DNA of 64,000 nt, taken from contig NZ_PNFP01000002.1 of assembly GCF_002940685.1 (NCBI RefSeq), positions 62,001 through 126,000 on the forward strand, given 5' to 3'. The notes beneath the pieces are model-generated. The model did no database searches. It saw nothing but the letters and a program-made list of their open reading frames with translations, and had not been told where the DNA came from. Each line of letters begins with the position of its first letter. Position 1 is the stretch's first letter. Made by a program: the position numbers and the translations under genes. Shown here in pieces: positions 15,488 through 32,059 of the stretch. The stretch is from Ensifer adhaerens. Lineage in GTDB: Bacteria > Pseudomonadota > Alphaproteobacteria > Rhizobiales > Rhizobiaceae.

Positions 15488-17554
15488 TCAGTTCCTCCGG
15501 CGAATGAGGGCGTCTGCGGCAACGGCTCCCTGGCCCTGCGGCAACACCATCAAAGGATTGATATCGAGTTCTTCGAGATTCGAAGCGTTTGCAACGACAT
15601 AGGATGCCGCTGCGGCGACAGCGTCGGTCAATGCAGCGAAATCGCCGGCCGGACCGCCGCGATAGCCGTCGATGAGCTTGCGGATCTTCAGCCCACCGAT
15701 CGCTTCCTTGATCGCTTCCGGCGTCGTCGGCAGCGTCAGGATGGCGGAATCGTCGAGCAGTTCCACGAGGATACCGCCGGCGCCGATCGTCAGCACCGGG
15801 CCTGCCACGGGGTCGCGCATCGCGCCGATGATGAGTTCCGCGACCGGTTTTGCGACCATCTTTTCGACGAGGTAACCGGAGGCGACTCCGGCCATCGCCT
15901 TTGCCGCCGCATGAACCTCGTCGCGGCTTGAAAGGTTGAGCTTCACGGCGCCCGCTTCGGTCTTGTGGGCGACGCCGAGGCCCTTCAGCACCACCGGGAA
16001 GCCGAGTGCTTCGGCAGCCGCTGCCGCCTCTTCGGCGGTTGCCGCGGTCTTGCCCGCGGGCACCTGTAGGCCCGCGGTGGCAAGTTCTACCTTGGCCTCG
16101 TGTTCGCTGAGTGTGATTGTTTCCCAGGCGTGGACACCGCTGCCATCGAGCAGTCGTGGCGGGGCTGGCTTTGCCCAGGCCGCCCCGATGTCGGCGGCCG
16201 TCTCGATGGCCGCCAGCGCCTCCTCGATGCCGAAAAAGGGCACGATGCCGGCCTTCATCAGGAAGAGGGCGGTTGCCTCCGGCATGTTCTCGCCGAGGCT
16301 TGCGACGATGCCGGCGCGGGCGCCGGTGGCTCTCGCCGCGTCGATCACCGCATGGCAGGTGGTTTCCCAATCGGCCGGGTCGCAGCGGTCGAGCCGCGGG
16401 AAATCGAGCACGAGCAGATTGATTGCATAACCGCCCGTCATCATGGCGGCAAACGCGGTCGTCTGCTTCTCGCGGTTGCCCCAGACGAAGGTGTGGTAGT
16501 CGAGCGGGTTGGCGATCGTCACCATCTCGCCGAGCGCGTCTTTCAGTGGTTTCTTCTGCTCGTCGTGCAAGGGGCGGTAGGTGACCCGGTAGCGCTCACC
16601 GGCGTCCGCCATCAGCGAGGCCTCGCCGCCGGAACAGCTCATCGAGGAGATGTCGCGGCTGTCGAGCGGGCCTGTCACATGCAACAGCTTCAGGGATTCG
16701 AGAAGTGCCGGCAGCGTGTCGACGCGACCGATGCCGAGACGGGCAAGCAGGGCAGAGGAGACGCGGTCGTTGCCGGCAAGCGAGGCGGTATGCGACACCG
16801 TCGCAAGCTGGGCCGCTTCCGACTTGCCGACCTTCAGCGTCACCACCGGCTTGCCGAGCTCACGCGCCCGCGTTGCCAACCGCTCTAAGGCTGCCACGCT
16901 GTCGAAGCCTTCGATATGCAGTCCGACGGCGGTGACGCGCGGGTCTTCAAGCACTGCGCAGGCGATGTCGGACAGGCCCGTCTGCGCCTGGTTGCCGGCG
17001 GTCATGACATAGGCAAGCGGCAGGCCGCGCGTCTGCATGGAAATGTTGCAGGCGATGTTGGACGACTGCGTCAGGATCGCGACGCCTTTTTCCACGCGGA
17101 GCATGCCGTGCTGGTCTGGCCAGAGCAGAGCGCCATCGAGCATGTTGATGAAGCCGTAGCAATTGGGCCCGACGATCGGCATGTCGCCGGCAGCGGCGAC
17201 CAGCGCCTCCTGCATGTCGTTGCCGTCGTCCAGCTCGCTTGCGGCCTCGCGAAAGCCCGAGGCATAACAGACGGCGCCGCCTGAGCCGCGGCTAGCCAGA
17301 TCGCGAATGATGTCGATCGTCAGCTGCCGGTTGACGCCGACGAAGGAGGCGTCGGGGGCGCCGGGCAGTTCGGCAACCGAGCGGTAGCATTTGCGGCCGA
17401 GGATCTCGGCCTCGCGCGGGTGCACCGGCCAGATTTCGCCGGTAAAACCCATCTTGTCGCATTGTTCGATGACCCGCCGGGCTTCCTTGCCGCCGAAGAC
17501 GGCGATCGAGCGCGGGCGGATCAGGCGGTCGAGGGAGCGGGGAGTGGAGGTCAT
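15488..17554 (-). CDS. acetate-CoA ligase (ADP-forming) family protein, probable betaine/carnitine CoA ligase
   Basis: 688 residues from ATG 17554 (GGAGTGGAGGTC lies on the other side, so the ribosome-binding site is weak). Layout: N-terminal CoA-binding Rossmann domain (about 8-130, with IVGPNCYGFIN), a succinyl-CoA-synthetase-like flavodoxin region with SHTASLAG (His255, the phospho-histidine of ADP-forming ligases), and a C-terminal ATP-grasp domain (about 470-688, with VVLKGLGVAHKTEAGAV). Such proteins make acyl-CoA from acid, ATP and CoA. Next to the CaiD-like hydratase and the acyl-CoA dehydrogenase, the likely substrates are gamma-butyrobetaine, crotonobetaine or carnitine. Two repeat elements separate it from the upstream gene. 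Confidence 0.8.
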   Translation of the reverse strand: MTSTPRSLDRLIRPRSIAVFGGKEARRVIEQCDKMGFTGEIWPVHPREAEILGRKCYRSVAELPGAPDASFVGVNRQLTIDIIRDLASRGSGGAVCYASGFREAASELDDGNDMQEALVAAAGDMPIVGPNCYGFINMLDGALLWPDQHGMLRVEKGVAILTQSSNIACNISMQTRGLPLAYVMTAGNQAQTGLSDIACAVLEDPRVTAVGLHIEGFDSVAALERLATRARELGKPVVTLKVGKSEAAQLATVSHTASLAGNDRVSSALLARLGIGRVDTLPALLESLKLLHVTGPLDSRDISSMSCSGGEASLMADAGERYRVTYRPLHDEQKKPLKDALGEMVTIANPLDYHTFVWGNREKQTTAFAAMMTGGYAINLLVLDFPRLDRCDPADWETTCHAVIDAARATGARAGIVASLGENMPEATALFLMKAGIVPFFGIEEALAAIETAADIGAAWAKPAPPRLLDGSGVHAWETITLSEHEAKVELATAGLQVPAGKTAATAEEAAAAAEALGFPVVLKGLGVAHKTEAGAVKLNLSSRDEVHAAAKAMAGVASGYLVEKMVAKPVAELIIGAMRDPVAGPVLTIGAGGILVELLDDSAILTLPTTPEAIKEAIGGLKIRKLIDGYRGGPAGDFAALTDAVAAAASYVVANASNLEELDINPLMVLPQGQGAVAADALIRRRN

Positions 17555-17592
17555 GCTGCCTTGCACTCCGCCATAGCGCTTGCCGCCAGCGC

Positions 17593-17747
17593 CCTCATTC
17601 CTGTGCTTGTCACAGGAATCCAGCCGGCTTGCGTCTGCAAGCCGGTAGGAACACTTTTCATCTCGAAACGCGTGCGCTGCGTGCCTTGGTCATGCGCGGC
17701 ACGGACGTGCCGCTGCTGGATTCCTGTGACAAGCACAGGAATGAGGG
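17593..17747. repeat. rhizobial intergenic palindromic repeat, family A, copy 1
   Basis: The left arm CCTCATTCCTGTGCTTGTCA continues as CAGGAATCCAG; the right arm is the inverse (CTGGATTCCTGTGACAAGCA, then CAGGAATGAGG), with a GC-rich inner stem-loop between. Three more copies lie at 22781, 32097 and 33151. It separates two genes of the carnitine operon. Confidence 0.9.
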
Positions 17748-17769
17748 AAGAGAGGTTTGCCGCCTCTGG

Positions 17770-17818
17770 CCTCTCTCCCCCCTTGTGGGGGAGATGCCCG
17801 GCAGGGCAGAGGGGGGTG
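17770..17818. repeat. rhizobial intergenic palindromic repeat, family B
   Basis: A short imperfect palindrome of the common rhizobial type: CTCTCTCCCCCCTTGTGGGG followed by GAGATGCCCGGCAGGGCAGA and GGGGGG. It sits directly after the family A copy, in the gap before the acyl-CoA dehydrogenase stop. Confidence 0.75.
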
Positions 17819-17846
17819 AACTGAGGAACGCTGACCTTCATCCTCA

Positions 17847-19007
17847 TCACGCTCCCAGCGGCCGCAGCAGGTCGCGGCTGATGATGTGGCGCTGGATTTC
17901 CGACGTCCCGTCCCAGATGCGCTCGACGCGGGCGTCGCGCCAGAAGCGGGCGAGCGGCAGGTCGTCCATCAGACCCATGCCGCCGAAGATCTGGATCGCC
18001 TCGTCGGTGACGCGGGCGAGCATCTCGGTGGCGAAGACCTTGGCCGACGCGATCTCGCGGTTGGAGGGCAGGCCGTTGTCGAGCCGCCAGGCAGCCGACA
18101 GCGTCAGGAGATCGGCGGCGTCGATGTCGGTGATCATGTCGGCGAGCTTGAAGGAGACGCCCTGGTTGGCGCCGATCGGCTTGCCGAACTGCTTGCGATC
18201 GGCAGCATAGTTCAGCGCATAGTCGAAGGCGCGGCGCGCGCGGCCGACAGAGGTCGCAGCCACCGTCAGGCGGGTGGCGTAGAGCCAGTCGTTGGCGACG
18301 TCGAAGCCCTTGTGCACTTCACCGAGGATCTGGGAAGAGGGCAGGCGGCAATCGTCGAAGGTCAGGATGCAGTTGTTGTAGCCGCGGTGGGAGACCGAGT
18401 TGTAGCCCTTGCGGATCTCGAAGCCGGGCGTGCCGCGGTCGACAAGGAAACAGGTGATCTTCTTCTTCGGTCCGCGCGGCGTGTCTTCCTCGCCGGTGGC
18501 GATGAAGACGATGACGAAATCGGCAATGTCGGCATGGCTGATGAAATGCTTGGTGCCGTTGACTATCCAGTCGTCGCCATCCTTGCGGGCAAAGCACTTC
18601 ATACCGCGCACGTCGGAGCCGGCATCCGGCTCGGTCATCGCAAGGGCGTCGAACTTCTCGCCCTTGACGGCCGGGATCAGATATTTCTCGCGCTGCTCGG
18701 CATTGCAGCCCATCAGGATGCCCGAGGGGCGGCCGAAGAAGACGGTGAGGCCCATGGAGCCGCGGCCGAGTTCACGCTCGACCAGGGTGAAAGAGGTGTG
18801 GTCGAGGCCGGCGCCGCCCACTTCCTCCGGGAAATTGCAGCCGAAGAAACCGATCTCCTTGCATTTCCGGGCGATTTCCTGGCCGAGCTCGCGCGGCACC
18901 ACGCCGGTGCGCTCGACCTCGTCTTCATGCGGATAGATTTCGGTTTCGACGAAGCTCCTGACCGTATCGACGATCATCTGCTGTTCTTCGGTCAGTGCGA
19001 AATTCAT
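17847..19007 (-). CDS. acyl-CoA dehydrogenase, probable gamma-butyrobetainyl-CoA/crotonobetainyl-CoA enzyme
   Basis: 386 residues from ATG 19007 (AGGGGAACAACACA upstream). A full-length FAD-dependent acyl-CoA dehydrogenase: N-terminal helical domain, middle domain with ALAMTEPDAGSDVRGM, and C-terminal domain with RKQFGKPIGANQGV, AIQIFGGMGLMDDLP and, near the end, RIWDGTSEIQRHIISRDLL; the Glu/Asp-bearing GTSE loop typical of the family is present. In this operon it most likely oxidises gamma-butyrobetainyl-CoA to crotonobetainyl-CoA, which the CaiD-like hydratase can then hydrate. 139 bases separate it from the carnitine dehydrogenase gene upstream. Confidence 0.87.
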   Translation of the reverse strand: MNFALTEEQQMIVDTVRSFVETEIYPHEDEVERTGVVPRELGQEIARKCKEIGFFGCNFPEEVGGAGLDHTSFTLVERELGRGSMGLTVFFGRPSGILMGCNAEQREKYLIPAVKGEKFDALAMTEPDAGSDVRGMKCFARKDGDDWIVNGTKHFISHADIADFVIVFIATGEEDTPRGPKKKITCFLVDRGTPGFEIRKGYNSVSHRGYNNCILTFDDCRLPSSQILGEVHKGFDVANDWLYATRLTVAATSVGRARRAFDYALNYAADRKQFGKPIGANQGVSFKLADMITDIDAADLLTLSAAWRLDNGLPSNREIASAKVFATEMLARVTDEAIQIFGGMGLMDDLPLARFWRDARVERIWDGTSEIQRHIISRDLLRPLGA

Positions 19008-19146
19008 TGTGTTGTTCCCCTCGTTTTCGCGCCGCTGACGTCGGTGCCGCAAACGATGGCCGCCTCCTCAAGCGTCCTTCGGCTGCGGGTTGCGGCTCCG
19101 CCGGAAGGCGAAGCTGCCTGTTGTTGCTGGCCTGCCGCCGTTACGG

Positions 19147-20640
19147 TCAGGCGCGCTTCTGGCCGACGAAGCGCCCGGCGCCTTCAGGCGTCGGCAGCTG
19201 CGCATGGGCTTCGGTAATTGCGCGGAGCTTGCCCAGCACCGTCTCGGGTGCCGCGACCGCCTTGCCGGCCTTGCTGTCGACATGCAGCATCATCTGCTCG
19301 GCGGTGGCGACGGCCTCGTTGGTCGCGGCATTGTAGATCGTCGAGAAGATATGCAGGCGCTTTTCGTCCGACGACAGGATCTGGCAGGTCGAATAGAGCG
19401 CCTCGCCGAGCTTGGCCTCGCCGAGGTTCCGGATATGGGTCTCGACCGTGTAGTAGCTGTGGCCGTCGCGGACATATTCGAGGTCGACGCCGATCAGGCG
19501 CAGCACGCCGTCGGAGGTGTCGCCGAAGACCTGGAGATAGCGGTGCTCGGTCATGTGGCCGTTGTAGTCGACCCAGGCGGCGCTGACCTTGGTGTCGAGA
19601 ATGCGCAGCGGCTTGACGTCGCCGAGGTTCGCTTCCGGCTTCTTCGCGTTGGCCCACAGCTTGGCTTCGAAATCGGCAAGCAGCTTGCCGGCACCCCAGC
19701 CTTCGCCGCCATTGCCGGATTTCAACGCATGCATGATGCCGACAAGGTTTTCGTCGCGGATGCGTTCGAGCTCGCGGATGGAGCGGCCGGCGGCCTGCGC
19801 GTCCGACTGAGCGCCGATCTTTTCGACCAGCGCATCGTCGAGGTCGACGACGTCGGTGAACTTCGTCCAGGGCCATTTCAGGCACGGGCCGAACTGGGCG
19901 AGGAAGTGGCGCATACCCGCTTCGCCGCCGGCGATGCGGTAGGTCTCGAACAGGCCCATCTGCGCCCAGCGCATGCCGAAGGAGTAGCGCATGACGTTGT
20001 CGAGCGTTTCGGTATCGCAGATGTCGTCCTGGATCAGCCACAGAGCCTCACGCCAGAGCGCCTCGAGCAGGCGGTCGCCGACGAAGGCCTCAATTTCCTT
20101 GGCGATGACGACGCCCTTCATGCCGATCTGCTCGACGCCCAACATGGCGCGCTCGATCGTCGCTTTCGTCGTCTTCTTGCCGCCGACCAGTTCGACGAGC
20201 GGCAGCAGGTAGACGGGGTTATAGGGATGCGCCACGAACATGCGCTCGGGGTGGTGCATCTCGGACTGGAGATCGGAGGGCAGAAGGCCCGAGGTGGAGG
20301 AGCCGATCAGTGCGTCGGGCCGTGCGGCCGCATCGATCTTGGTGATGACGCCGCGCTTCAGCTCCAGCCGCTCCGGCACGCTTTCCTGAATCCAGTCAGC
20401 GCCTTCGACGGCTTCCTCGATGCTCTTGCAGAAGGCCAGTTTTCCCTTCGGCGGCAGCGGCGCCATGGTCAGCATCGCATAGGCGCGCTCGGCATTGGCC
20501 ATGACTTCGCCGATGATGCGTTCGGCTTCCGGATGCGGGTCGAAGATCTTCACGTCGATGCCGGCAAGCGCAAAGCGCGCCACCCAGGCACCACCGATGA
20601 CGCCACCGCCGACACAGGCTGCTTTGGTGATAAAGCTCAT
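19147..20640 (-). CDS. L-carnitine 3-dehydrogenase fused to a thioesterase domain
   Basis: 497 residues. Residues about 1-310 are an NAD-dependent 3-hydroxyacyl-CoA-dehydrogenase-like domain (AACVGGGVIGGAW dinucleotide motif near the start; SSTSGLLPSDLQ; FVAHPYNPVYLLPLVE with the catalytic-region His). Residues about 340-490 are a hot-dog thioesterase (AAWVDYNGHMTEHRY). This fusion is the known architecture of rhizobial carnitine dehydrogenases: the first domain oxidises L-carnitine to 3-dehydrocarnitine, and the second hydrolyses the betainyl-CoA made by the adjacent BKACE enzyme to glycine betaine. The start lies 17 bases after the BKACE stop. Cytoplasmic. Confidence 0.93.
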   Translation of the reverse strand: MSFITKAACVGGGVIGGAWVARFALAGIDVKIFDPHPEAERIIGEVMANAERAYAMLTMAPLPPKGKLAFCKSIEEAVEGADWIQESVPERLELKRGVITKIDAAARPDALIGSSTSGLLPSDLQSEMHHPERMFVAHPYNPVYLLPLVELVGGKKTTKATIERAMLGVEQIGMKGVVIAKEIEAFVGDRLLEALWREALWLIQDDICDTETLDNVMRYSFGMRWAQMGLFETYRIAGGEAGMRHFLAQFGPCLKWPWTKFTDVVDLDDALVEKIGAQSDAQAAGRSIRELERIRDENLVGIMHALKSGNGGEGWGAGKLLADFEAKLWANAKKPEANLGDVKPLRILDTKVSAAWVDYNGHMTEHRYLQVFGDTSDGVLRLIGVDLEYVRDGHSYYTVETHIRNLGEAKLGEALYSTCQILSSDEKRLHIFSTIYNAATNEAVATAEQMMLHVDSKAGKAVAAPETVLGKLRAITEAHAQLPTPEGAGRFVGQKRA

Positions 20641-20657
20641 GATCGTTCTGTCCCTGC

Positions 20658-21560
20658 TCAGCGCTTCGTCAGCTTCAGTTTCTCGCGGACCTCTTTCGGT
20701 CCGATGATCTTGGCGCCCATGCCCTCGATGACGCCGACCGCCTTTTCGACGAGCCGGCCGTTGGTGGCGAGCTGGCCCTTGCCGATATAGAGGTTGTCTT
20801 CAAGGCCGACGCGGACGTTGCCGCCGGCGAGAACCGCCGCTGCCGGATAGGCAAGCGCATTGCGGCCGATGGAGAAGGCCGAGAAGGTCCAGTTGGCGGG
20901 AACGTTGTTGACCATGGCCATGAAGGTGTTGAGGTCATCGGGCGCGCCCCACGGAATGCCCATGCAGAGCTGGATCAGCACCGGATCCTCGATCAGGCCT
21001 TCCTCGACGAGTTGCTTGGCAAACCAGAGATGGCCGGTATCGAAGGCTTCGATCTCGGGGCGCACGCCGAGCGCCGTCATCTGGCGGGCCATTTCGCGCA
21101 GCATCGACGGCGTGTTCGTCATGACGTAGTCGCCGAGCGAGAAGTTCATGGTGCCGCAGTCGAGCGTGCAGATCTCGGGCAGACATTCGGCGACATGGGC
21201 GACGCGCTCGGTGGCGCCGGCCATGTCGGTGCCCTTCTCGTTGACGGGCAGGGGCTTCTCGACATTGCCGAACACCAGATCGCCGCCCATGCCGGCGGTC
21301 AGGTTCAGGACGATGTCGATATCGGCGGAGCGGATACGGTCGGTCACTTCCCGGTAGAGATCGAGCCTGCGGGACGGCGCGCCGGTTTCCGGATCGCGAA
21401 CGTGGCAGTGGATCACGGCAGCGCCGGCCCTGGCTGCCTCGACCGCCGCTTCGGCGATCTGCTTCGGCGTGATCGGAACGTGGCTGGACTTTGAAACGGT
21501 GTCTCCCGAGCCGGTGACGGCGCAGGTGATGAATACCTCGCGGTTCATGCTGAGCGGCAT
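20658..21560 (-). CDS. BKACE-family 3-dehydrocarnitine cleavage enzyme
   Basis: 300 residues from ATG 21560 behind GGGAGA; the frame is open further to 21608 but lacks a better start. A beta-keto acid cleavage enzyme (formerly DUF849/Kce) with a TIM-barrel and the Zn-binding VIHCHVRDPETG segment plus LDCGTMNF. It condenses 3-dehydrocarnitine with acetyl-CoA to give betainyl-CoA and acetoacetate. It is the first gene of the carnitine operon, directly upstream of the dehydrogenase-thioesterase gene, and diverges from the AraC-type regulator. Confidence 0.9.
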   Translation of the reverse strand: MPLSMNREVFITCAVTGSGDTVSKSSHVPITPKQIAEAAVEAARAGAAVIHCHVRDPETGAPSRRLDLYREVTDRIRSADIDIVLNLTAGMGGDLVFGNVEKPLPVNEKGTDMAGATERVAHVAECLPEICTLDCGTMNFSLGDYVMTNTPSMLREMARQMTALGVRPEIEAFDTGHLWFAKQLVEEGLIEDPVLIQLCMGIPWGAPDDLNTFMAMVNNVPANWTFSAFSIGRNALAYPAAAVLAGGNVRVGLEDNLYIGKGQLATNGRLVEKAVGVIEGMGAKIIGPKEVREKLKLTKR

Positions 21561-21668
21561 TGCTGTCTCCCTTTTATTGACCCCATTACGATCCAAGAAC
21601 GACCACATTGCTTTTCATTATCGGCTGCATCCTATACATTATCGGCGACAGGGCGGAGAAGTTGGGGC

Positions 21669-22958: not shown

Positions 22959-24140
22959 TCATGTCTGCGCGCCCGCTCTTTTCATCATCGAGATCATCAG
23001 TTCTCCGATCTCCCCGGCAAAGGCGCCGCGCGGCCAGACGAGGGTGAGCGATTGCCGATAGGCCGGACCGAGCCGGATCATGGCCGGCGGGAGGTGCACG
23101 CGAGCGAGCGAGGAATGCGGCAGCACCGAGAGATAGCCGTGCTGGCGAACGAGGTTGATGATGACAGGGATGGAATCGACCTCGACCAGGGTGACGCGCC
23201 GCCGTTCGGTTTCATCAAGCGTATCGTCGAGAAAGCGGGCGGCCTCGCGGCGCAGGCCGCTGCGGACGCTCGGCACCGCGATCGGGCAGGCAGCAAGCAG
23301 CCGCGGCAGGTCTCCGCCGTGCTCGGAAAGGGCGGAGGCCGGGCCGGCGAGCACCAGCGGCGTCTGCGACACCAGCCGGCCGTCGCAATCCAGGGGGATC
23401 TCGGCGACATCGAGCAGGGCGGCATCGAAGCGGCGGCTGCGCAGACCGGCCAGAAGTTCGTCGGCCGTCGTGCTGGAAATGTACAGCGGCTGGCGCGGCC
23501 GGCTTCGGTGCCAGTTCGCCGTCAGGGCCGCGAGCATGCGGGCGATCTCGCTTTCCGGGCCGAGCGGCATGACGGCGCCGAGCCGCCAGGTGGCGACGTC
23601 GCGGCGAAAGCGGTCGGCAGAGGCGTGGGTCAGCCGCGCCCAGATATCGAGCAGGGCCTCGCTGAGGGGAATGATCCGCTCAGCCATTGGCGTACAGAGG
23701 ACCCCACCATGGGAGCGCTCGAACAGCCTGGTACCGAGATGGCGTTCGAGATCCGCCATCTGCCGCGTCAGCTGCGGCTGGCCGAGGCCGAGCGCCTTTG
23801 CCGTGGCGCGGATGCTGCCGGAGCGGGCGATGCGGACGAAGCGGTCGAGCGCGACGAGACCGATCGGCGGTATGGGGGCGCTCGCCTCCCGCCCGACGCC
23901 TTCCAGGATGGCGGTGATCTTGCCGGTTGCCTCTTCGACGTCGACGGCGCGCGCGCGCGCTTCGAGCGTCACCACCAGCGCTGTTTCTTCCCGGCGGAAG
24001 AGTGGCATGGAGATCGCCTGTTCGAATCGCTTGACCGCGGCGCTGACGCTCGACGGTGCCCGGCCGCAAAGGGATGCGGCGCGGCGAACACCACCTTCGC
24101 GAAGCACTGCATCGACCAAAGTGATCGTCGCCATATCCAT
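22959..24140 (-). CDS. LysR-type regulator with two tandem HTH domains
   Basis: 393 residues, about 90 longer than usual LysR proteins. Two LysR-type winged HTHs occur in a row: residues 5-55 (VRRAASLCGRAPSSVSAAVK...FEQAISMPLFRRE) and 93-150 (IRATAKALGLGQPQLTRQMA...LERHLGTRLFERS). The periplasmic-binding-like effector domain follows (about 170-390). Both HTHs look intact. The gene diverges from the lyase gene at 24349 and is therefore the likely regulator of the five-enzyme cluster; the effector may be ergothioneine or a (thio)urocanate. Start ATG 24140, with an alternative ATG two codons on. Confidence 0.85.
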   Translation of the reverse strand: MDMATITLVDAVLREGGVRRAASLCGRAPSSVSAAVKRFEQAISMPLFRREETALVVTLEARARAVDVEEATGKITAILEGVGREASAPIPPIGLVALDRFVRIARSGSIRATAKALGLGQPQLTRQMADLERHLGTRLFERSHGGVLCTPMAERIIPLSEALLDIWARLTHASADRFRRDVATWRLGAVMPLGPESEIARMLAALTANWHRSRPRQPLYISSTTADELLAGLRSRRFDAALLDVAEIPLDCDGRLVSQTPLVLAGPASALSEHGGDLPRLLAACPIAVPSVRSGLRREAARFLDDTLDETERRRVTLVEVDSIPVIINLVRQHGYLSVLPHSSLARVHLPPAMIRLGPAYRQSLTLVWPRGAFAGEIGELMISMMKRAGAQT

Positions 24141-24222
24141 TCACATGTCCCCGGACGCGGCACCTGCATCTGGCGCGTTCTGAAATCTGCATCACCCGTT
24201 CTGGATTTGGGATATAGCATGG

Positions 24223-24239
24223 ATGCGCGATAAGCGCAT
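24223..24239. promoter_or_regulatory. inverted repeat in the LysR/lyase divergent promoter region
   Basis: ATGCGC-GATAA-GCGCAT is a perfect inverted repeat, extended outward by a near-symmetric GCAT pair on each side. It lies 83 bases upstream of the tandem-HTH LysR start and 110 bases upstream of the lyase start. A binding site for the regulator is plausible but rests on symmetry and position only. Confidence 0.45.
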
Positions 24240-24348
24240 AGCATGCATGGAGCACCCCGGCATTTTCGAGCGTCGGTTGCGAGACATCAGAGCATCCGCG
24301 CAGCGCTTCGAACCCGGGGCGATCCAGCGCGGGAGGATCCCTATCGGC

Positions 24349-25887
24349 ATGCTGCACCAGGTCAAGACCATCGTTCTCTGCGGGAAACCGCTGGATTTCG
24401 CGACACTCGAGGACATCGGCGCGGGAAGGGCGCGACCGGTGGCGGACGACGGCGGCATGGAACGCGTGGCGGCGGCCCACAAGGTGGTTGCCGACCGCGT
24501 CGCGATGGGGCTTCCCGTCTATGGCTCCAACACCGGCGTCGGCTCGATGAAGGATCGGCTCTGGACGGCCGACGACCTTGCCGAATTCAACAATTCTCTG
24601 GTGCGCGCGCATCACTTCGGCACCGGCGAATTCTTTGCGCCGGCGATCGTACGCATGGCGATCGCCATCCGTGTCAACACGGCGATGCGGGGCCACACCG
24701 GCTGCAGCCCGGACCTGATCCGGGCGTTTCTGGCACTCAGCGAACACGATATCATTCCGGCGGTGCGCCGCCACGGCTCGATGGGATGCGCCGATATCGG
24801 GCTGATGGGCCAGATCGCCTCGGTGCTGACAGGTGTCGGCGAGGCCTATTACCAGGGGCGTCTCGTTTCGGCCGATACGGCGCTTGCCGAAGCGGGGCTC
24901 AAGCCGTTCGTCATGCAGCCGCGCGACGCGCTGGCGGCCCTCAGCGTCAACGCCATCGCCTTTGCCGCTGCCGCCGACGTGCTGCGCGAGGCGGCTTCGG
25001 CCATCCGCGTGCTGCTCGTCACCGGGGTCATGTCGTCCCAAGCGCTCGGGGCGTCTGCCGATCCCTGGCGGGTGGCGGCGACGCTCTCGACCCGCGGCGA
25101 GGCGGTGGTCGGCTCCTGGCTCTATGGCCAATCCGGTATCTCCGACTGGCCGGTGCCGACGGCGATCCACGATCCCTTGAGCCTGCGCATGACCGCCCAG
25201 GTCTTCGGCGCCGTGGTCGATACGCTGCTGGTCGCCGCCGGGCGGCTGGTGGAGCAGACCTATCTCTCCGACGACAATCCGGTCGTGATCGGTGGCCAGG
25301 TGCATTCTTCCGGCGCATCGCTGCCGCTGACGACGACGCTCTACATCGAGGCGGCGCAGATCGCCTTTTCCCATGCGGCGCGCAACGTCTTGAACCGCTG
25401 CATCCTTCTTTCCAACGGCGGACGCCGCAATCTTTCGGTCAACCTGGTGGCGCCGGGCGAGGTCGCGACCGGGCTCGGGCCGCTGATGAAGCTTGCGGTC
25501 GAACTTTACATGCGCGTGCAGTCGCTCGCGGTGCCGCTCTCGGCCCAGTCGATCGTGGTCGCGGGCGGTCTCGAAGAGGAGGCGACGTTCCTGCCGCTGA
25601 TCGTCGAGCGCATGGAAACGCAGGTACGGGATCTCCGCCAGCTTGCCGCGATCGAGGCGATGCTTTCGGCCCAGGCGATCGATCTCGTCGGCGACCAGCC
25701 GCAGGGGATCGTCAAGCGCGCCTATGACCAGACGCGCTCGGTGAGCCCCATGTATCTCAAGGACCGGCCGCTCTCGAAGGAGATCGAGGCGCTGCAGGAT
25801 GCGTTTACCTGCCACGATCTTCTGCGCTCCTTCGTTGCGACCGCGCCGATGCCGGAATTCGACGACTTCTTCGCGCTCGACAAATAA
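24349..25887 (+). CDS. MIO-less histidine ammonia-lyase homologue, probable ergothionase (ergothioneine trimethylammonia-lyase)
   Basis: 512 residues from ATG 24349 (GGGAGGA 11 bases upstream), the usual length of histidine ammonia-lyase. The fold is clear from YGSNTGVGSM (58-66 region), SVNAIAF and DPLSLRMTAQVFGA. But where ammonia-lyases have Ala-Ser-Gly, which cyclises to the MIO cofactor, this protein reads GSMG-Cys147-Ala148-Asp149, so MIO cannot form. Ergothionases belong to this superfamily and are reported to work without MIO, eliminating trimethylamine from ergothioneine to give thiourocanate. The neighbours encode all later steps, which supports this role. S-methyl-ergothioneine is an alternative substrate. 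First gene of the operon. Confidence 0.8.
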   Translation: MLHQVKTIVLCGKPLDFATLEDIGAGRARPVADDGGMERVAAAHKVVADRVAMGLPVYGSNTGVGSMKDRLWTADDLAEFNNSLVRAHHFGTGEFFAPAIVRMAIAIRVNTAMRGHTGCSPDLIRAFLALSEHDIIPAVRRHGSMGCADIGLMGQIASVLTGVGEAYYQGRLVSADTALAEAGLKPFVMQPRDALAALSVNAIAFAAAADVLREAASAIRVLLVTGVMSSQALGASADPWRVAATLSTRGEAVVGSWLYGQSGISDWPVPTAIHDPLSLRMTAQVFGAVVDTLLVAAGRLVEQTYLSDDNPVVIGGQVHSSGASLPLTTTLYIEAAQIAFSHAARNVLNRCILLSNGGRRNLSVNLVAPGEVATGLGPLMKLAVELYMRVQSLAVPLSAQSIVVAGGLEEEATFLPLIVERMETQVRDLRQLAAIEAMLSAQAIDLVGDQPQGIVKRAYDQTRSVSPMYLKDRPLSKEIEALQDAFTCHDLLRSFVATAPMPEFDDFFALDK

Positions 25888-25905
25888 TCAGACTGGGAGA
25901 GCAGC

Positions 25906-27282
25906 ATGTCCGATTTCGATCTCGTTCTGAAAGGCACCGTTGTTCTCCCCCAAGGGATCGTCGAGGGCGGCCATGTCGCGGTTCGCGACGGCAAGGTGGT
26001 GCATGTCGGCCAGGGCGTGGCACCGGCTGCGCGCGAGCGGCACGATCTCGGAGAGGCGCTGATCCTGCCGGGTGCGGTCGACGCGCAGGTGCATTCGCTG
26101 TCGCAGAAGAACCAGGAGGATTTCCTCTGGTCGACCCGCTCGGCGGCAGCCGGCGGCGTCACCACCATTGTCGACATGCCCTATGACGAGGGCAATCTCG
26201 TCTGCTCGGCGGAAGCCCTTCGCCGCAAGATCGATCACGCGAGCCCGCAGGCACGCGTCGATTTCGCGCTCTATGGCACCGTCGATCCGGAGGAGGGGCC
26301 GGCGCGCATTCTCGAAATGGTGGAGGCAGGCGTCGCCGCCTTCAAATTCTCGACCTTCGGCACCGATCCAAAACGCTTTCCCCGCATTCCGGCAGCGCTG
26401 CTCGAAGACTGCTTCCGCGCGATCGCGCCGACGGGGCTAGCCGCGGGCGTCCACAATGAGGACGACGAAGCGGTGCGTGCGGCGATCGACAAGGTCAAGG
26501 CGCAAGGGATTACCGACTACCGCGCCCACGGTCTGTCGCGCCCGCCGCTGACCGAACTGCTTGCCACCAACCAGATCTATGAGACGGGGGCGGCCACCGG
26601 CTGCCCGGCCCATGTGGTGCATTGCTCGCTTGGCCGCGGCTACGAAATCGCCGCCGCGTACAGGGCACAAGGCCACAAGGCGACGATCGAGTGCTGCATC
26701 CACTACCTGACGCTCGACGAGGAAAACGATGTCCGCCGCCTCGGCGGCAAGGCGAAGATCAACCCGCCGATCCGGCCGCGCGCCGAGGTGGAAAAGCTCT
26801 GGCGGCACGTGGCCGACGGCACGGTGACCATGGTCTCGACCGATCACGTCAGCTGGTCGGAAGACCGAAAGACCAATCCGGACATGCTGGCCAATTCGTC
26901 CGGCGTGCCTGGGCTCGAAGTCATGGTGCCGCTCTTCGTCAAGGGCGCGCTGGAGCGTGGCATTTCCTTGACGCGCGCAGCCGAACTGATGACGCTGAAC
27001 CCGGCCCGGCACTTCCGCCTCGACCACCAAAAAGGGGCGCTGGAGCCGGGCAAAGATGCCGATATCATCGTCATGACGCCGGAACCCTATGTCTATGATG
27101 CCGCGGAAAGCGGTCACAACGTCGTCGGCTGGTCGCCCTATAATGGCATCCGACTGCCCTGGCGGGTGGCTGCCACCTATCTGCGGGGCAGGCTTGCCTT
27201 CGATGGCCGCCAGGTTCTTGCCGAACCGGGCGGTGGCCAATTCGTTCGGCCGCTGCCGACGCTGACGCTGCAGGAGGCGTGA
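25906..27282 (+). CDS. hydantoinase/allantoinase-like amidohydrolase, probable hydantoin-5-propionate hydrolase
   Basis: 458 residues; start after GGGAGAGCAGC. Cyclic amidohydrolase (dihydropyrimidinase/allantoinase group). Visible metal-site residues: Lys147 (AAFKFSTFG, carboxylated Lys), His183 (GVHNED), His239 (VVHCSLGRG) and Asp313 (VSTDHVSW). The usual first HxH motif reads D-A-Gln61-V-His63, so one His ligand is replaced by Gln. In the ergothioneine route such an enzyme opens hydantoin-5-propionate to N-carbamoyl-glutamate. It follows the lyase gene by 18 bases and overlaps the next gene by one base (TGATG), so the genes are co-translated. Confidence 0.8.
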   Translation: MSDFDLVLKGTVVLPQGIVEGGHVAVRDGKVVHVGQGVAPAARERHDLGEALILPGAVDAQVHSLSQKNQEDFLWSTRSAAAGGVTTIVDMPYDEGNLVCSAEALRRKIDHASPQARVDFALYGTVDPEEGPARILEMVEAGVAAFKFSTFGTDPKRFPRIPAALLEDCFRAIAPTGLAAGVHNEDDEAVRAAIDKVKAQGITDYRAHGLSRPPLTELLATNQIYETGAATGCPAHVVHCSLGRGYEIAAAYRAQGHKATIECCIHYLTLDEENDVRRLGGKAKINPPIRPRAEVEKLWRHVADGTVTMVSTDHVSWSEDRKTNPDMLANSSGVPGLEVMVPLFVKGALERGISLTRAAELMTLNPARHFRLDHQKGALEPGKDADIIVMTPEPYVYDAAESGHNVVGWSPYNGIRLPWRVAATYLRGRLAFDGRQVLAEPGGGQFVRPLPTLTLQEA

Positions 27283-28565
27283 TGAGTAAGTCTGCCCCAA
27301 ACAAGGTTCCGGCCAATCTGCCCGTCAATGCTGCCCGCATCGCCGGTATCGTCAACGGCCTCTCGGGGATTACCGAACCGGACCGGCCCTATACGCGCCG
27401 CGCCTTTACGCCGCTTTTCCTCGAAGGTCGCGCCTTTCTCGACCGGCGCTTTCGCGCGGCAGGTCTCGAGACCCGCATCGATGCCGCCGGCAATCTCATC
27501 GGCCGCCGCAAGGGGAAAAAGTCGGCGCTCGGCACCATTCTGCTCGGCTCGCACTCGGACACGGTGCCGGATGGCGGTCGTTTCGACGGCATTGCCGGCG
27601 TCGCTGCCGCACTCGAAGTGGCGCGTGCGCTTGCCGATAACGGCATCGAGCTCGACCACGATCTGGAGATCGTCGATTTCCTGGCGGAGGAAGTGTCGAT
27701 CTTCGGCGTGTCCTGCGTCGGCAGCCGGGGCATGGCAGGCGTGTTGCCGGATGGCTGGCTGAGCCGCACGCAGGGAGATCTGAGCCTCAGGCAAGGCATC
27801 GTCGAAGTGGGCGGCGATCCCTCCAGGCTTTCCGGCTCGAAGCGCTCCGACATCAAGGCCTTTCTCGAACTGCACATCGAGCAGGGGCCGGTGCTCGAAA
27901 CCGGGCGGCTTGATATCGGCGTCGTCACCGCGATTTCCGGCATTACCCGCATCGAGATCATCGTCGAGGGACAGGCGGATCACGCCGGCACGACGCCGAT
28001 GGGGCATCGCCGCGACGCGCTGGTTGCAGCCTCCCGGCTGGTGCTGGAAATCGAAAGGCTGGCGACGGAGTTTTCGCGAGGCGACGGGCACTTTACCGCG
28101 ACGGTCGGCGAGTTCTCGATCGAGCCGAATGCGGCCAATGTGGTGCCGTCAAAAGTGCGGTTGCTGATCGACGCGCGCGCCGAACTGCGGCCGCAGATGG
28201 AACGGTTCCTCGATACGCTTCAGCCTTTGTGTCAGGGCCTCGCCGAGGCGTCTGATGTGACGATCGCGCCTGTCAATGTGATCTCGGACAACCACCCGAC
28301 GCCGGGCGATGCGCTCTTACTTTCGACGCTGGAACAGAGCTGCGAGGCGATCGGTGCCAAGCACCGGCGCATGGCGTCCGGTGCCGGCCACGACACCGCC
28401 TGGATGGGGCGTATCACCCGCTCGGCGATGATCTTCATTCCATGCCTCGGTGGGCGCTCGCATGCGCCCGAGGAGTGGGCGGAAAACGACGATATCGCGC
28501 TTGGCGCCGCCGTGCTCTTCGATGCGGTGAAGAGGCTCGACAGGAAATTGCAGGAGAAGGTGTGA
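27282..28565 (+). CDS. M20-family N-carbamoyl-L-amino acid hydrolase (amidase, hydantoinase/carbamoylase family)
   Basis: 427 residues from ATG 27282 behind GGAGG. Dinuclear-metal M20 amidase: GSHSDTVPDGGRFDGIAG (metal-binding His and Asp), FLAEE (catalytic/bridging Glu), ELHIEQGP, and a C-terminal GAGHDTAWM with SHAPEEW. These are the signature elements of N-carbamoyl-amino-acid hydrolases, ureidoglycolate-type amidases and beta-ureidopropionases. In this gene order the expected reaction is N-carbamoyl-L-glutamate to L-glutamate, CO2 and ammonia. Two bases separate its stop from the next start. Confidence 0.87.
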   Translation: MSKSAPNKVPANLPVNAARIAGIVNGLSGITEPDRPYTRRAFTPLFLEGRAFLDRRFRAAGLETRIDAAGNLIGRRKGKKSALGTILLGSHSDTVPDGGRFDGIAGVAAALEVARALADNGIELDHDLEIVDFLAEEVSIFGVSCVGSRGMAGVLPDGWLSRTQGDLSLRQGIVEVGGDPSRLSGSKRSDIKAFLELHIEQGPVLETGRLDIGVVTAISGITRIEIIVEGQADHAGTTPMGHRRDALVAASRLVLEIERLATEFSRGDGHFTATVGEFSIEPNAANVVPSKVRLLIDARAELRPQMERFLDTLQPLCQGLAEASDVTIAPVNVISDNHPTPGDALLLSTLEQSCEAIGAKHRRMASGAGHDTAWMGRITRSAMIFIPCLGGRSHAPEEWAENDDIALGAAVLFDAVKRLDRKLQEKV

Positions 28566-28566
28566 G

Positions 28567-29664
28567 ATGGGCCGGATACTGAAGGAAAAGGACGTCGAGG
28601 CAGCGGTCAAGGGCGGCTCCGTCTATGCCGCCGGCGGCGGCGGCTGGGCCGATCATGGCCGCATGCTCGGCTACGCCGCGGTATCGATCGGCAAGCCCGA
28701 GCTTGTGTCGATCGACGAGCTCGACGCCAACGACTGGGTGGCGACGGCAGCGGCGATCGGCGCGCCGGCTTCGACCACGCCGTGGGAAATGCGCGGCGTC
28801 GACTACGTCAAGGCCGTTCAGCTCTTGCAGGAGGCGCTTGGCGAGAAGCTTTCCGGCCTGATCATCGGCCAGAACGGTAAGTCCTCGACGCTCAACGGCT
28901 GGCTGCCCTCGGCAATCCTCGGCACCAAGGTGGTCGATGCGGTCGGCGACATCCGCGCCCATCCGACCGGCGACATGGGCTCGATCGGCCTTGCCGGGTC
29001 GCCCGAGCCGATGATCCAGACGGCCGTCGGGGGAAATCGCGAGGAGAACCGCTACATCGAGCTGGTCGTGCGCGGCGCCACCGCCAAGGTCTCGCCGGTC
29101 CTGCGCACCGCCTCCGACATGTCCGGCGGCTTCATCGCTTCGTGCCGCAACCCGGTCAGGGCATCGTATGTCAGGGACAATGCGGCGCTCGGCGGCATTT
29201 CGCTGGCGCTCAAGCTCGGCGAGGCGATCATCGCGGCGGAAGCCAAGGGCGGCAGTTCCATCATCGATGCCATCGTCAAGACCACCAACGGCGCGTTGCT
29301 CGCCGAAGGCACGATCACCGACAAATCCGTCGTCTATACCAAGGAAGCCTTCGACATCGGCACAGTGACCCTGGGGAAGGGCGCTGACTCAACAGTATTG
29401 CACGTGATGAACGAGTATATGGCGGTTGACTCTGCGGAAGGCACGCGGCTTGCGACCTTCCCCGACGTCATCACCACGCTGTCGCCGGAGGGCGAACCTT
29501 TGAGCGTCGGCCAGTTGCAGGTGGGCATGAGGATCTTCGTCCTGCATGTGCCAAAGACGGTGATCCCGCTGTCGTCAAGCGTGCTCGACCCGACGGTCTA
29601 TCCATCGGTGGAGAAAGCCATGGGCATCGAGCTTGCCCGCTACGCGCTTTCCGGCCGGAGCTGA
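28567..29664 (+). CDS. DUF917 / S-methyl-thiohydantoin desulfurase family protein
   Basis: 365 residues covering the whole two-domain DUF917 family, which as I recall is now named S-methyl thiohydantoin desulfurase after work on ergothioneine-type compounds. Landmarks: VYAAGGGGWADHG near the N-terminus, DAVGDIRAHPTGDMGSIGL in the middle, and VLHVPKTVIPLSSS near the end. It would remove the sulfur from 5-oxo-2-thioxoimidazolidine-4-propionate (or its S-methyl form) to yield hydantoin-5-propionate, the substrate of the amidohydrolase encoded upstream. Start ATG 28567 follows GGAGAAGG. Confidence 0.82.
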   Translation: MGRILKEKDVEAAVKGGSVYAAGGGGWADHGRMLGYAAVSIGKPELVSIDELDANDWVATAAAIGAPASTTPWEMRGVDYVKAVQLLQEALGEKLSGLIIGQNGKSSTLNGWLPSAILGTKVVDAVGDIRAHPTGDMGSIGLAGSPEPMIQTAVGGNREENRYIELVVRGATAKVSPVLRTASDMSGGFIASCRNPVRASYVRDNAALGGISLALKLGEAIIAAEAKGGSSIIDAIVKTTNGALLAEGTITDKSVVYTKEAFDIGTVTLGKGADSTVLHVMNEYMAVDSAEGTRLATFPDVITTLSPEGEPLSVGQLQVGMRIFVLHVPKTVIPLSSSVLDPTVYPSVEKAMGIELARYALSGRS

Positions 29665-29676
29665 CGGGAGAGAGTG

Positions 29677-30006
29677 ATGGCGCGCGATGCCGGTCTGGAG
29701 GAGCTGATCCGCGAAGAGCTCGGCGACCGCGCCGGGCTCTCGGAAAAGGCGATGTTCGGCGGCTGGGCCTATCTGCTGCACGGCAACCTGCTGCTCGGCG
29801 CGCGCGAGGGTTCGCTGCTCGTCCGGCTCGGCAAGGGCAATGACGGCTGGGCGCTTGCGCTGCCCGATATCGAGCTGATGGTAATGAACGGGCGGGCGAT
29901 GCACGGCTGGGTGCGGGCAGGGGCGGAGGCCTATGGCGACGATGCCCTGCGCAAGCGGTTGCTTGATGGGGCGCTTGCGTTCGTCGAGACGTTGCCACCG
30001 AAGTGA
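29677..30006 (+). CDS. TfoX/Sxy N-terminal domain protein
   Basis: 109 residues from ATG 29677 (GGGAGAGAG upstream; a GTG one codon earlier is possible). It carries the TfoX_N fold (KAMFGGWAYLLHGNLLLGAR) but not the C-terminal TfoX domain of the competence regulator, so a role in DNA uptake should not be assumed. It lies within the ergothioneine-type operon, 12 bases after the DUF917 gene and before a large repeat pair. A distant relative is encoded at 59620-59964. Function unknown. Confidence 0.75.
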   Translation: MARDAGLEELIREELGDRAGLSEKAMFGGWAYLLHGNLLLGAREGSLLVRLGKGNDGWALALPDIELMVMNGRAMHGWVRAGAEAYGDDALRKRLLDGALAFVETLPPK

Positions 30007-30045
30007 GAATTGCTGGCTTGGCTCGCCGATGAACCGCGAGGTTTG

Positions 30046-30236
30046 CCCCTCACCCTAACCCTCTCCCCGCAGGCGGGGAGAGGGGACGTGGCCGCTAGCA
30101 ACGTCGAGCGTGTGGCGAGCGCCGGCCAATCATTCGCCCAATGCGGGACGGGAAAATTGCATGATGGTACGGGCCGGCGCGGCAAGCACAACGCATCCCC
30201 TCTCCCCGCGAGCGGGGAGAGGGCTAGGGTGAGGGG
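30046..30236. repeat. inverted pair of rhizobial mosaic repeats, family C
   Basis: CCCCTCACCCTAACCCTCTC (30046 onward, running into CCCGCAGGCGGGGAGAGGGG) and its inverse (CCCCTCTCCCCGCGAGCGGG from 30197, ending GGGTGAGGGG at 30236) flank about 110 bases of unrecognised sequence. Together they could fold into one long hairpin. They fill the 394-base gap 30007-30400 before the urocanase-like gene. Confidence 0.85.
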
Positions 30237-30400
30237 CCGTTGCCACCCGCCGCCACAGACGTGAGGGGCGGCGACTTGCGCGTGTCACCAATGCAAGGGA
30301 GCAGGGATCTGCCTCCGCCATAAACGAGAGGCAGCGACTTCCCGCCGCCGTGAATGTCTGGGGCAACCGCCCCGCCGAAACAACAACAAGGAACGAGACG

Positions 30401-32059
30401 ATGCCCAAGGCCAATCCCCGTCATCCTGGTTTTCCCATTCCCGGCGGGCCGGAGCTGCGCACCAAGGGCTGGCGGCAGGAGGCGCTGTTGCGGCTGCTCG
30501 AAAACGTGCTTTCGGTCGGCGAGGATCCGGACAATCTCGTCGTCTATGCAGCCCTCGGCAAGGCGGCGCGCAACTGGCCGGCGCATCGCGCCATCGTCAA
30601 GACGCTCACCGAGATGGACGAGGACCAGACGCTGATCATCCAGTCGGGAAAGCCGGTGGGGCTGCTCAAAACCCATGCCAAGGCGCCGCTCGTCATCATG
30701 GCCAATTGCAACATCGTCGGCCAATGGGCGAAGGCCGAGGTGTTTTACGAATTGCAGCGCAAGGGGCTGATCTGCTGGGGCGGGCTGACGGCCGGCGCCT
30801 GGCAATATATCGGCAGCCAGGGCGTGATCCAGGGCACCTACGAGATCTTCATGCGCATCGCCGAGCGCCGCTTCGGCGGCGATCTCGCCGGCCGCTTCGT
30901 GCTGACGGCGGGGCTCGGCGGCATGGGGGGCGCGCAGCCGCTTGCGGGTCGGATGGCGGGGGCTGCGATCCTCTGCGTCGACATCGACGCGGAGCGGGCC
31001 AAGAAGCGCCGGGAGATCGGCTATCTCCAGGAGATCGCGCCCGATCTCGATGCGGCGCTGGCGATGATCGACGCGGCGGTGAAGGAAAAGCGGGCGCTCT
31101 CCGTCGGTCTTGTCGGCAATGCGGCGGAGATCTATCCGGAGATCGCCCGGCGCGGCATCGTGCCTGACGTGGTGACCGATCAGACCTCGGCGCACGACCT
31201 CGTCTACGGCTATGTGCCGAAGGGCATGAGCCTCGACCAGGTGAAGTCGCTGCGTGACGACGGCCAGGGGCAGTTGATGGCAGCGAGCCGCGCCTCGATC
31301 GTCGAGCACGTCAAGGCGATGCTCGACTTCCAGGCGAAGGGCTCGGAAGTCTTCGACAACGGCAACCTGATCCGCACCCAGGCGCGCGAGGGCGGTGTTG
31401 CCAATGCCTTCGACATTCCGATCTTCACCGAGGCCTATCTGCGCCCGCTCTTTGCCCGCGCCATCGGGCCCTTCCGCTGGATGGCGCTGTCAGGCGAGGA
31501 GAGCGACATCGCCCGGATCGACGATCTGCTGCTCGACATGTTTCCGCACAACCGCATCATCACCAACTGGATCCGGCTTGCGCGCCAGCATATCCCCTTC
31601 GAGGGCCTGCCGGCACGCATCGCCTGGCTCGGCCACGGCGAACGCACGGCGCTGGCGCGGCGGGTGAACGAGCTGGTGGCGGCAGGAGAACTCAAGGGGC
31701 CGATCGCGTTTTCGCGCGACCATCTCGACGCCGGCGCCATGGCGCATCCGAACATCATGACCGAGCGGATGAAGGACGGTTCGGACGCGATCGCCGACTG
31801 GCCACTGCTCGACGCCATGCTGCTCTGCTCGTCGATGGCCGACCTCGTCGTCGTCCATTCGGGCGGTGGCGGCTACGCCGGCTACATGACGAGCTGCGGC
31901 GTCACTGTGGTCGCCGACGGCACGGTCGAGGCCGACGAACGGCTTGACCATGCGCTCACCAACGACACCTCGCTCGGCGTGATCCGCTATGCCGATGCCG
32001 GCTATGACGAAAGCTTCGAGGAGATCGCCGCCAAGGGCATTGGGCATGTGAAGGTGTAG
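30401..32059 (+). CDS. urocanase-family protein lacking the catalytic Cys, probable thiourocanate hydratase
   Basis: 552 residues from ATG 30401 (a weak GGAAC upstream), the usual urocanase length. NAD-binding elements are kept (WGGLTAGAWQYIGSQGVIQG; TAGLGGMGGAQPLAGRM at 169-185), as are FSRDHLDAGA, GSDAIADWPLL and GVIRYADAGY. Two active-site changes stand out: the Cys of the RICWLGYGER motif is Ala408 (RIAWLGHGER), and the HHGGG region reads VVHSGGGGYAGY. A canonical urocanase would not be expected to work this way; thiourocanate hydratases form a divergent branch of the family. It adds water to (S-methyl-)thiourocanate, the product of the lyase encoded at 24349. Confidence 0.8.
   Translation: MPKANPRHPGFPIPGGPELRTKGWRQEALLRLLENVLSVGEDPDNLVVYAALGKAARNWPAHRAIVKTLTEMDEDQTLIIQSGKPVGLLKTHAKAPLVIMANCNIVGQWAKAEVFYELQRKGLICWGGLTAGAWQYIGSQGVIQGTYEIFMRIAERRFGGDLAGRFVLTAGLGGMGGAQPLAGRMAGAAILCVDIDAERAKKRREIGYLQEIAPDLDAALAMIDAAVKEKRALSVGLVGNAAEIYPEIARRGIVPDVVTDQTSAHDLVYGYVPKGMSLDQVKSLRDDGQGQLMAASRASIVEHVKAMLDFQAKGSEVFDNGNLIRTQAREGGVANAFDIPIFTEAYLRPLFARAIGPFRWMALSGEESDIARIDDLLLDMFPHNRIITNWIRLARQHIPFEGLPARIAWLGHGERTALARRVNELVAAGELKGPIAFSRDHLDAGAMAHPNIMTERMKDGSDAIADWPLLDAMLLCSSMADLVVVHSGGGGYAGYMTSCGVTVVADGTVEADERLDHALTNDTSLGVIRYADAGYDESFEEIAAKGIGHVKV

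Follow-up and report, generated by a model that had tools for sequence, protein, structure and literature searches.

A probable ergothioneine catabolic operon of Ensifer adhaerens with a divergent head lyase

A five-step bacterial catabolism of ergothioneine was reportedly described by Beliaeva, Leisinger and Seebeck in 2021, and Burkholderia sp. HME13 is said to carry out such a catabolism with a set of Ert enzymes. The pathway itself is already known, and curated models exist for four of its enzymes, NCBIfam using the names ErtD and ErtE. Here we analyse a stretch of 64,000 nucleotides (nt) from Ensifer adhaerens (contig NZ_PNFP01000002.1, positions 62,001 to 126,000), referred to as the window, in which positions 22959-32059 hold five enzyme genes, for a lyase, ErtD, ErtE, ErtC and ErtB, together with a divergent LysR gene (Table 1). 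Judging from its sequence, this locus is very probably an ergothioneine catabolic operon with glutamate as its end product. What is new here is the separate clade of its lyase, the mismatch between this lyase and the rest of the pathway, the candidate operator with its regulator carrying a double helix-turn-helix (HTH), and the existence of clusters that lack a lyase.

The locus has in common with the five-step pathway and the Burkholderia Ert system the same four downstream enzymes, as judged by curated models, and the reactions are deduced to follow one another in the same order. It differs from the Burkholderia system in having a lyase from another clade and in its gene order: in Burkholderia arboris, ErtD and ErtE lie on the opposite strand and the lyase about 1.4 kb downstream of ErtB, the operator is absent, and LysR finds only a weak match of 47 bits. 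With the ergothionase of Treponema denticola (PDB 6s7j/6s7q), the window lyase shares the fold, the absence of the 4-methylideneimidazole-5-one (MIO) triplet, the Lys and Glu positions and a Ser-x-Asn motif, but it has Cys-Ala-Asp where the Treponema enzyme has Glu-Gly-Asp. The S-methyl-type clusters (models NF058531/NF058532) draw on the same superfamilies, and the ErtD of the Agrobacterium plasmid pAt even passes NF058538 (783 bits); their hydratase and desulfurase, however, pass the S-methyl models, unlike the window proteins. The HutH/HutU route of histidine utilisation, finally, resembles the operon in the fold of the first two enzymes, but the window operon lacks the MIO triplet and the hydratase cysteine, and its further enzymes are different ones.

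Support comes from the four downstream enzymes, all of which exceed the cut-offs of their own equivalog models: ErtB with 1057 bits (cut-off 930), ErtC with 604 (440), ErtD with 799 (600) and ErtE with 602 (520), the last scoring higher still on the generic Zn-dependent hydrolase model NF009531 (691 bits, cut-off 486). The original prediction for this DNA had placed five enzyme families in one operon, and all five genes are indeed found at the expected positions with open reading frames free of internal stops; its DUF917, hydantoinase-like and N-carbamoyl hydrolase assignments are borne out by NCBIfam and Pfam models. It had also described the urocanase-like protein as lacking its cysteine. 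At this position, which is catalytic in HutU, the hydratase reads GLPARIAWLG instead of the GLPARICWLG of a HutU-type protein, and Ala occupies it in all 56 tabulated rows, that of the window included. The ErtB motif HSGGGGYAGYMTS is common to the Burkholderia-type (HSGGGGYSGYMTS) and Deinococcus clusters, and is not seen in the tabulated HutU- or S-methyl-type rows. A separate observation concerns the ErtD proteins, which carry QVH or QTH at the position of HxH, the metal motif of hydantoinases, in all tabulated rows except the unaligned Deinococcus one.

Inferring the reactions from the observed gene content and family membership, we expect that the lyase would split trimethylamine from ergothioneine to give thiourocanate, which ErtB would hydrate to thiohydantoin propionate. 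ErtC would strip the sulfur from this compound, yielding hydantoin-5-propionate, the ring of which would be opened by ErtD; the resulting N-carbamoylglutamate would then be hydrolysed by ErtE to glutamate, CO2 and ammonia. The cluster is no accident of one genome. Among 56 Rhizobiaceae loci, collected by similarity to the lyase so that the presence of the lyase holds by construction, 55 share the order LysR-lyase-D-E-C-B, the remaining contig stopping short of ErtB, and such recurrence rejects chance as an explanation.

Table 1. Features of the ergothioneine locus (positions in the window)
Feature	Position	Strand	Basis
LysR-type regulator with double HTH_1 and LysR substrate-binding domain, divergent	22959..24140	-	PF00126 x2, PF03466
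Operator candidate TTTGGGATATAGCA...GCATAGCA, between LysR and lyase genes	24206..24243	+	conserved motif
MIO-less enzyme of the aromatic-amino-acid-lyase fold, proposed ergothionase (ErtA function)	24349..25887	+	PF00221, PDB match, motifs, trees
ErtD, hydantoin-5-propionate amidohydrolase	25906..27282	+	NF058538
ErtE, N-carbamoyl-L-glutamate amidohydrolase	27279..28565	+	NF058540
ErtC, thiohydantoin desulfurase (DUF917 / S-Me-THD family)	28567..29664	+	NF058529
Small TfoX_N-like protein, optional operon member	29674..30006	+	PF04993, 31.5 bits (cut-off 30.1)
ErtB, thiourocanate hydratase	30401..32059	+	NF058530

As the original prediction had it, the head lyase has no MIO: Cys-Ala-Asp replaces the Ala-Ser-Gly (ASG) triplet in the window and in 54/54 tabulated homologues, the motif table leaving aside two of the 56 loci with short reading frames (L055 and L057). 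The Lys and Glu of the Treponema ergothionase are retained, and the best PDB match is 6s7j, both by sequence and by predicted model. In the tree, 24 MIO-less lyases fall on one side of a branch with support of 100/100, and the window-type lyases form a clade of their own (100/100) on a very long stem. The sister of this clade comprises the lyases of Treponema, Polaromonas, Paracoccus denitrificans and B. arboris, with support of 99/97, or 98/93 when three members are added and some rows exchanged (bootstrap 98-99). The set labelled MIO in the first tree included L002, a third lyase-family gene of the host genome (G000 contig C45:104259-105623) that has GSVGYLT rather than ASG at the MIO position. 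A Deinococcus lyase on a long branch (L094), which belongs to a thiol-like cluster, groups with neither the window nor the Treponema clade; it was used in a preliminary tree only and omitted from all others, and the paralogues of genome G472 described below are in no tree. We regard the window-type lyases as a probable separate ergothionase clade rather than as members of the Treponema/Burkholderia type.

Several observations weigh against an ergothioneine operon. With the sole structurally characterised ergothionase, the lyase has no more than 27-31% identity, and the usual active-site Gln is replaced by His in the 54 tabulated Rhizobiaceae loci, several outlying members retaining Gln. Confidence of the lyase model is low at residues 60-71 and 401-411, which contain active-site positions, and no ergothionase family model in NCBIfam confirms the enzyme; the Treponema ergothionase itself matches only HutH-type models there, below cut-off. 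Approximately unbiased (AU) tests do not reject trees that join either clade with a third MIO-less set (p 0.128 and 0.128 for the first tree, 0.0735 and 0.117 for the enlarged one). Furthermore, the Polaromonas member of the Treponema-type clade is located apart from ert genes, so that membership of that clade alone does not fix the substrate. ErtB also passes the broad hutU model TIGR01228, with 694 bits against a cut-off of 375. Lastly, no OpuAC-type transporter is found among the window genes scanned, and the nearest transporter is of the polyamine type, its substrate-binding protein being near the cluster in 16/56 loci and its permease in 28/56, counts that are limited by the 10-kb flanks. 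Nevertheless, with four equivalog models passed, a MIO-less, ergothionase-like lyase, and OpuAC transporters in two related operons, ergothioneine is by a wide measure the most plausible substrate, in keeping with what was first predicted. As to the concern, raised with that prediction, that the lyase might cluster away from known ergothionases, the lyase clade came out as sister to the Treponema type, which did not refute the assignment, but the clade is deep, and with AU p values of 0.07-0.13 other placements among MIO-less lyases are not rejected.

How poorly the lyase matches the rest of the pathway is best seen in pairwise identities. Compared with B. arboris, ErtC and ErtB are both 69% identical, ErtD 47% and ErtE 45%, and the lyase 31%; compared with P. 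denitrificans, the values are 70% for ErtD, 58% for ErtE, 73% for ErtC and 79% for ErtB, and 29% for the lyase. Within the 56 Rhizobiaceae loci, identity ranges over 67-95% for the lyase, 69-95% for ErtE, 87-97% for ErtB and 85-98% for ErtC, which suggests that the greater divergence of the lyase is in part due to its speed of change. Speed alone is no full explanation, as the alphaproteobacterium P. denitrificans combines a lyase of the Treponema type with otherwise rhizobial-like enzymes. It is conceivable, though improbable, that the substrate of the window lyase is a different thiohistidine betaine or an oxidised compound such as ergothioneine sulfonate, for which a pathway in Agrobacterium radiobacter has reportedly been described, and that a shared ErtB-E module finishes the breakdown. 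The contrast between 29-31% identity for the lyase and 45-79% for ErtB-E, and a place among MIO-less lyases that the AU tests do not fix, would agree with this. On the other hand, a thiohydantoin desulfurase is present in 56/56 loci, of which a sulfonate route should on chemical grounds have no need, and the Lys/Glu signature and the sister placement fit an ergothionase.

Very improbable, in turn, is the S-methyl-ergothioneine that the original prediction had offered as an alternative substrate. The enzyme superfamilies are identical, and the S-methyl models do match the window proteins, but below their cut-offs: ErtC reaches 286 bits (cut-off 450), against 604 on the thiol model, and ErtB 741 bits (cut-off 880), against 1057. 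Moreover, the window has HSGGGGYAGYMTS where the Agrobacterium S-methyl-type hydratase has HGMGNWAQS. The controls behave as they should, in that the S-methyl desulfurase model is passed by the clusters of the Agrobacterium plasmid pAt (555 bits) and a Lichenihabitans plasmid (556 bits), the pAt hydratase reaches 976 bits on the S-methyl hydratase model, and the thiol desulfurase model gives passing scores of 552-608 bits for the clusters of B. arboris, P. denitrificans, Paracoccus aminophilus and Neorhizobium; one Deinococcus desulfurase, with 395 bits, stays below the thiol cut-off. We thus rejected the S-methyl route on these scores. The Agrobacterium cluster (L095, Agrobacterium tumefaciens Ach5 plasmid pAt, 402-421 kb) has no lyase in the stretch seen, and includes genes for a molybdopterin S/N-oxide reductase, a glutathione-transferase-like protein and a proline/glycine-betaine transporter.

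Hardly more credible is a divergent ammonia-lyase acting on 2-thiohistidine or histidine, which the histidine ammonia-lyase fold and a MIO-type lyase in one other ErtC-linked cluster (G472) might suggest, but against which stand the missing triplet in all 54 tabulated homologues, a HutH-like gene with ASG elsewhere in the host genome (613 bits) and the OpuAC transporters of the two related operons. Histidine utilisation as such was rejected, even though ErtB passes the hutU model, since the lyase lacks the MIO triplet and the hydratase its Cys, and the separate HutH-like gene has a HutU-like neighbour. In two other clusters, L097 (the Lichenihabitans plasmid) and L194 (G472), ErtB/ErtC-type genes lie beside a lyase whose ASG triplet is intact, which suggests an ammonia-releasing entry there, from thiohistidine or its S-methyl form.

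The LysR-type regulator diverging from the operon, also foreseen, is confirmed. The motif TGGGATAT occurs in 56/57 LysR-lyase intergenic regions, the window included. A separate count over the 400 nt that precede the lyase gene finds it in 55/56 loci, with five sites elsewhere in 2.29 million strand-bases. As the 56 loci, on which the operator was defined, are related, independent weight comes from 19 other clusters, of which 12 have the motif within 350 nt upstream where 0.004 is expected for each, the test region of one (L137) having been chosen after its site was seen. No site was found upstream in Thalassospira, Rhizobium CC-CFT758, B. arboris, Microvirga, G472 and two S-methyl clusters. 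In the window, TTGGGATAT occurs once (0.07 expected). The copies in G043 and G107 form the full palindrome TGGGATATCCCA, and several others contain GGGATATCCC. A longer operator pattern is matched just once in the host genome, so that the genome-wide search yielded no second member of the regulon; a reversed control pattern, with at most one mismatch, gave three genome matches, more than the operator pattern itself. Two HTH_1 domains are present in 7/7 cluster regulators tested, among them those of the window and of distant clusters, and no title on tandem-HTH LysR regulators was among the matches listed from the open-licence literature. The double-HTH LysR would probably control the operon from the candidate TTTGGGATAT site. 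Its inducer could be ergothioneine or, more likely, thiourocanate or a later intermediate, because site and regulator accompany some lyase-less clusters too. The operator offers a handle on what the cell senses.

The operator candidate also bears on the start of the lyase, whose reading frame is open from 24223. As 36/56 homologous matches begin at residues 38-43 of this longer frame, residue 43 corresponding to 24349, and the operator candidate lies at 24206-24243, a start at 24349 is supported. The LysR and lyase genes are 208 nt apart, and the enzyme genes follow closely, with 18 nt between lyase and ErtD, an overlap of 4 nt between ErtD and ErtE, and 1 nt between ErtE and ErtC. A TfoX_N-like gene, absent from the original prediction and present in 33/56 loci, follows ErtC after 9 nt and is 394 nt from ErtB, taking the ATG at 30401 as the start of the latter. 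The region ahead of ErtB (30007-30400) contains a palindrome that is repeated (CCCCTCTCCCCGC...GCGGGGAGAGGGG) and may be one of the dispersed repeats of the host genome.

In two genomes from two other families (G432 and G631), an OpuAC-type ABC transporter lies between the lyase and ErtD, and is followed by D-E-C-B; for G432, the Pfam scan covered the binding protein alone, and the other genes are identified by BLAST. The best matches of this binding protein are glycine-betaine and OsmF-like proteins (450 and 357 bits in G432), and it further resembles EgtUC, an ergothioneine protein (best 100 and 97 bits). Homologues of this transporter, with a binding protein 72% and permeases 59 and 62% identical, are encoded on another contig of the host genome. 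The OpuAC-type system is at most a candidate importer. Uptake by the adjoining polyamine-type transporter was not adopted, as that system is present near only some loci.

How widespread is such an operon? In our samples, ErtC exceeds its cut-off in 6/398 Pseudomonadota and 5/385 Alphaproteobacteria genomes, the host being in both sets, thus ten genomes in total. A window-type lyase, 33-100% identical, is near ErtC in eight of these (G000, G043, G107, G253, G307, G411, G432 and G631), and a lyase at least 54% identical occurs in 5/398 genomes, all five having ErtC. In G411, neither ErtD nor ErtE is found in the 19-kb stretch covered. The other two genomes are G472, with a MIO-type lyase beside ErtC, and G289, which has ErtD-C-B and LysR without ErtE in the stretch seen, and whose only genome-wide match to the lyase family is MIO-type and on another contig. 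Ten plasmid records carry ErtC at 67-89% identity; within the plasmid stretches, the adjoining lyase is window-type in three and Treponema-type in two, and none is seen in five, among them Rhizobium CC-CFT758 with ErtC split over two frames and Microvirga without a visible ErtB. The nearest relatives of the window locus are from Ensifer adhaerens and Ensifer sp., with lyase identity of up to 95%. In agreement with the original prediction, no description of the cluster from a Sinorhizobium-like organism was found in the open-licence literature; yet it is widespread in Rhizobiaceae, the window-type lyase also occurs in genomes of other alphaproteobacterial families, and four of the enzymes are already modelled in NCBIfam.

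These distributions allow a tentative proposal, for which the odds seem to us a little short of even. D-E-C-B may be a self-contained thiourocanate module, often with one operator and a double-HTH LysR that would sense thiourocanate rather than ergothioneine, to which varied head lyases (window-, Treponema/Burkholderia- or MIO-type) or none may be joined; the window-type lyase would then represent a distinct lineage of ergothionases, and bacteria without a head lyase might live on thiourocanate released by their neighbours. If true, soil bacteria would break down ergothioneine in a chain of cross-feeding, and the lyase-less clusters make such cross-feeding testable.

Fungi and actinobacteria are named as producers of ergothioneine (PMC7653990), whereas the bacteria that remove it have been poorly mapped. 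A 2026 BLAST survey with the Burkholderia enzyme concluded that few genera possess ergothionase, and notes that it did not cover divergent homologues (PMC13405746). The window lyase clade, about 30% identical to the Burkholderia type, is of a kind that such a search would miss; neighbouring genes are a better marker of the pathway than the lyase sequence alone.

Within the host genome (7.5 Mb), EgtD has no match and EgtB none that exceeds the cut-off, other ergothioneine-making routes not having been searched for, nor was there a match to DUF1989 (PF09347), which we take to be a marker of trimethylamine N-oxide demethylase. Upstream of the ergothioneine operon, at 15488-21608, lies a carnitine degradation operon with genes for a CoA ligase, an acyl-CoA dehydrogenase, a carnitine 3-dehydrogenase-thioesterase fusion (909 bits, cut-off 592 for the dehydrogenase) and a BKACE protein. 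Its BKACE and AraC-type genes are near the cluster in 55/56 loci, the contig of the 56th beginning too late, and both pathways use trimethylammonium compounds. A last observation concerns G472 (L182-L193 and L198; contigs C1, C2, C3, C6 and C7), an alphaproteobacterial genome of 2.7 Mb, in which PF00221 gives 52 matched pieces, corresponding to about 28 genes. Some of these lyase genes form tandem arrays, of which one adjoins a second DUF917 gene, and the 11 distinct paralogues tabulated have motifs such as GQVWAGEIL instead of ASG, a large expansion of MIO-less lyases in a small genome.

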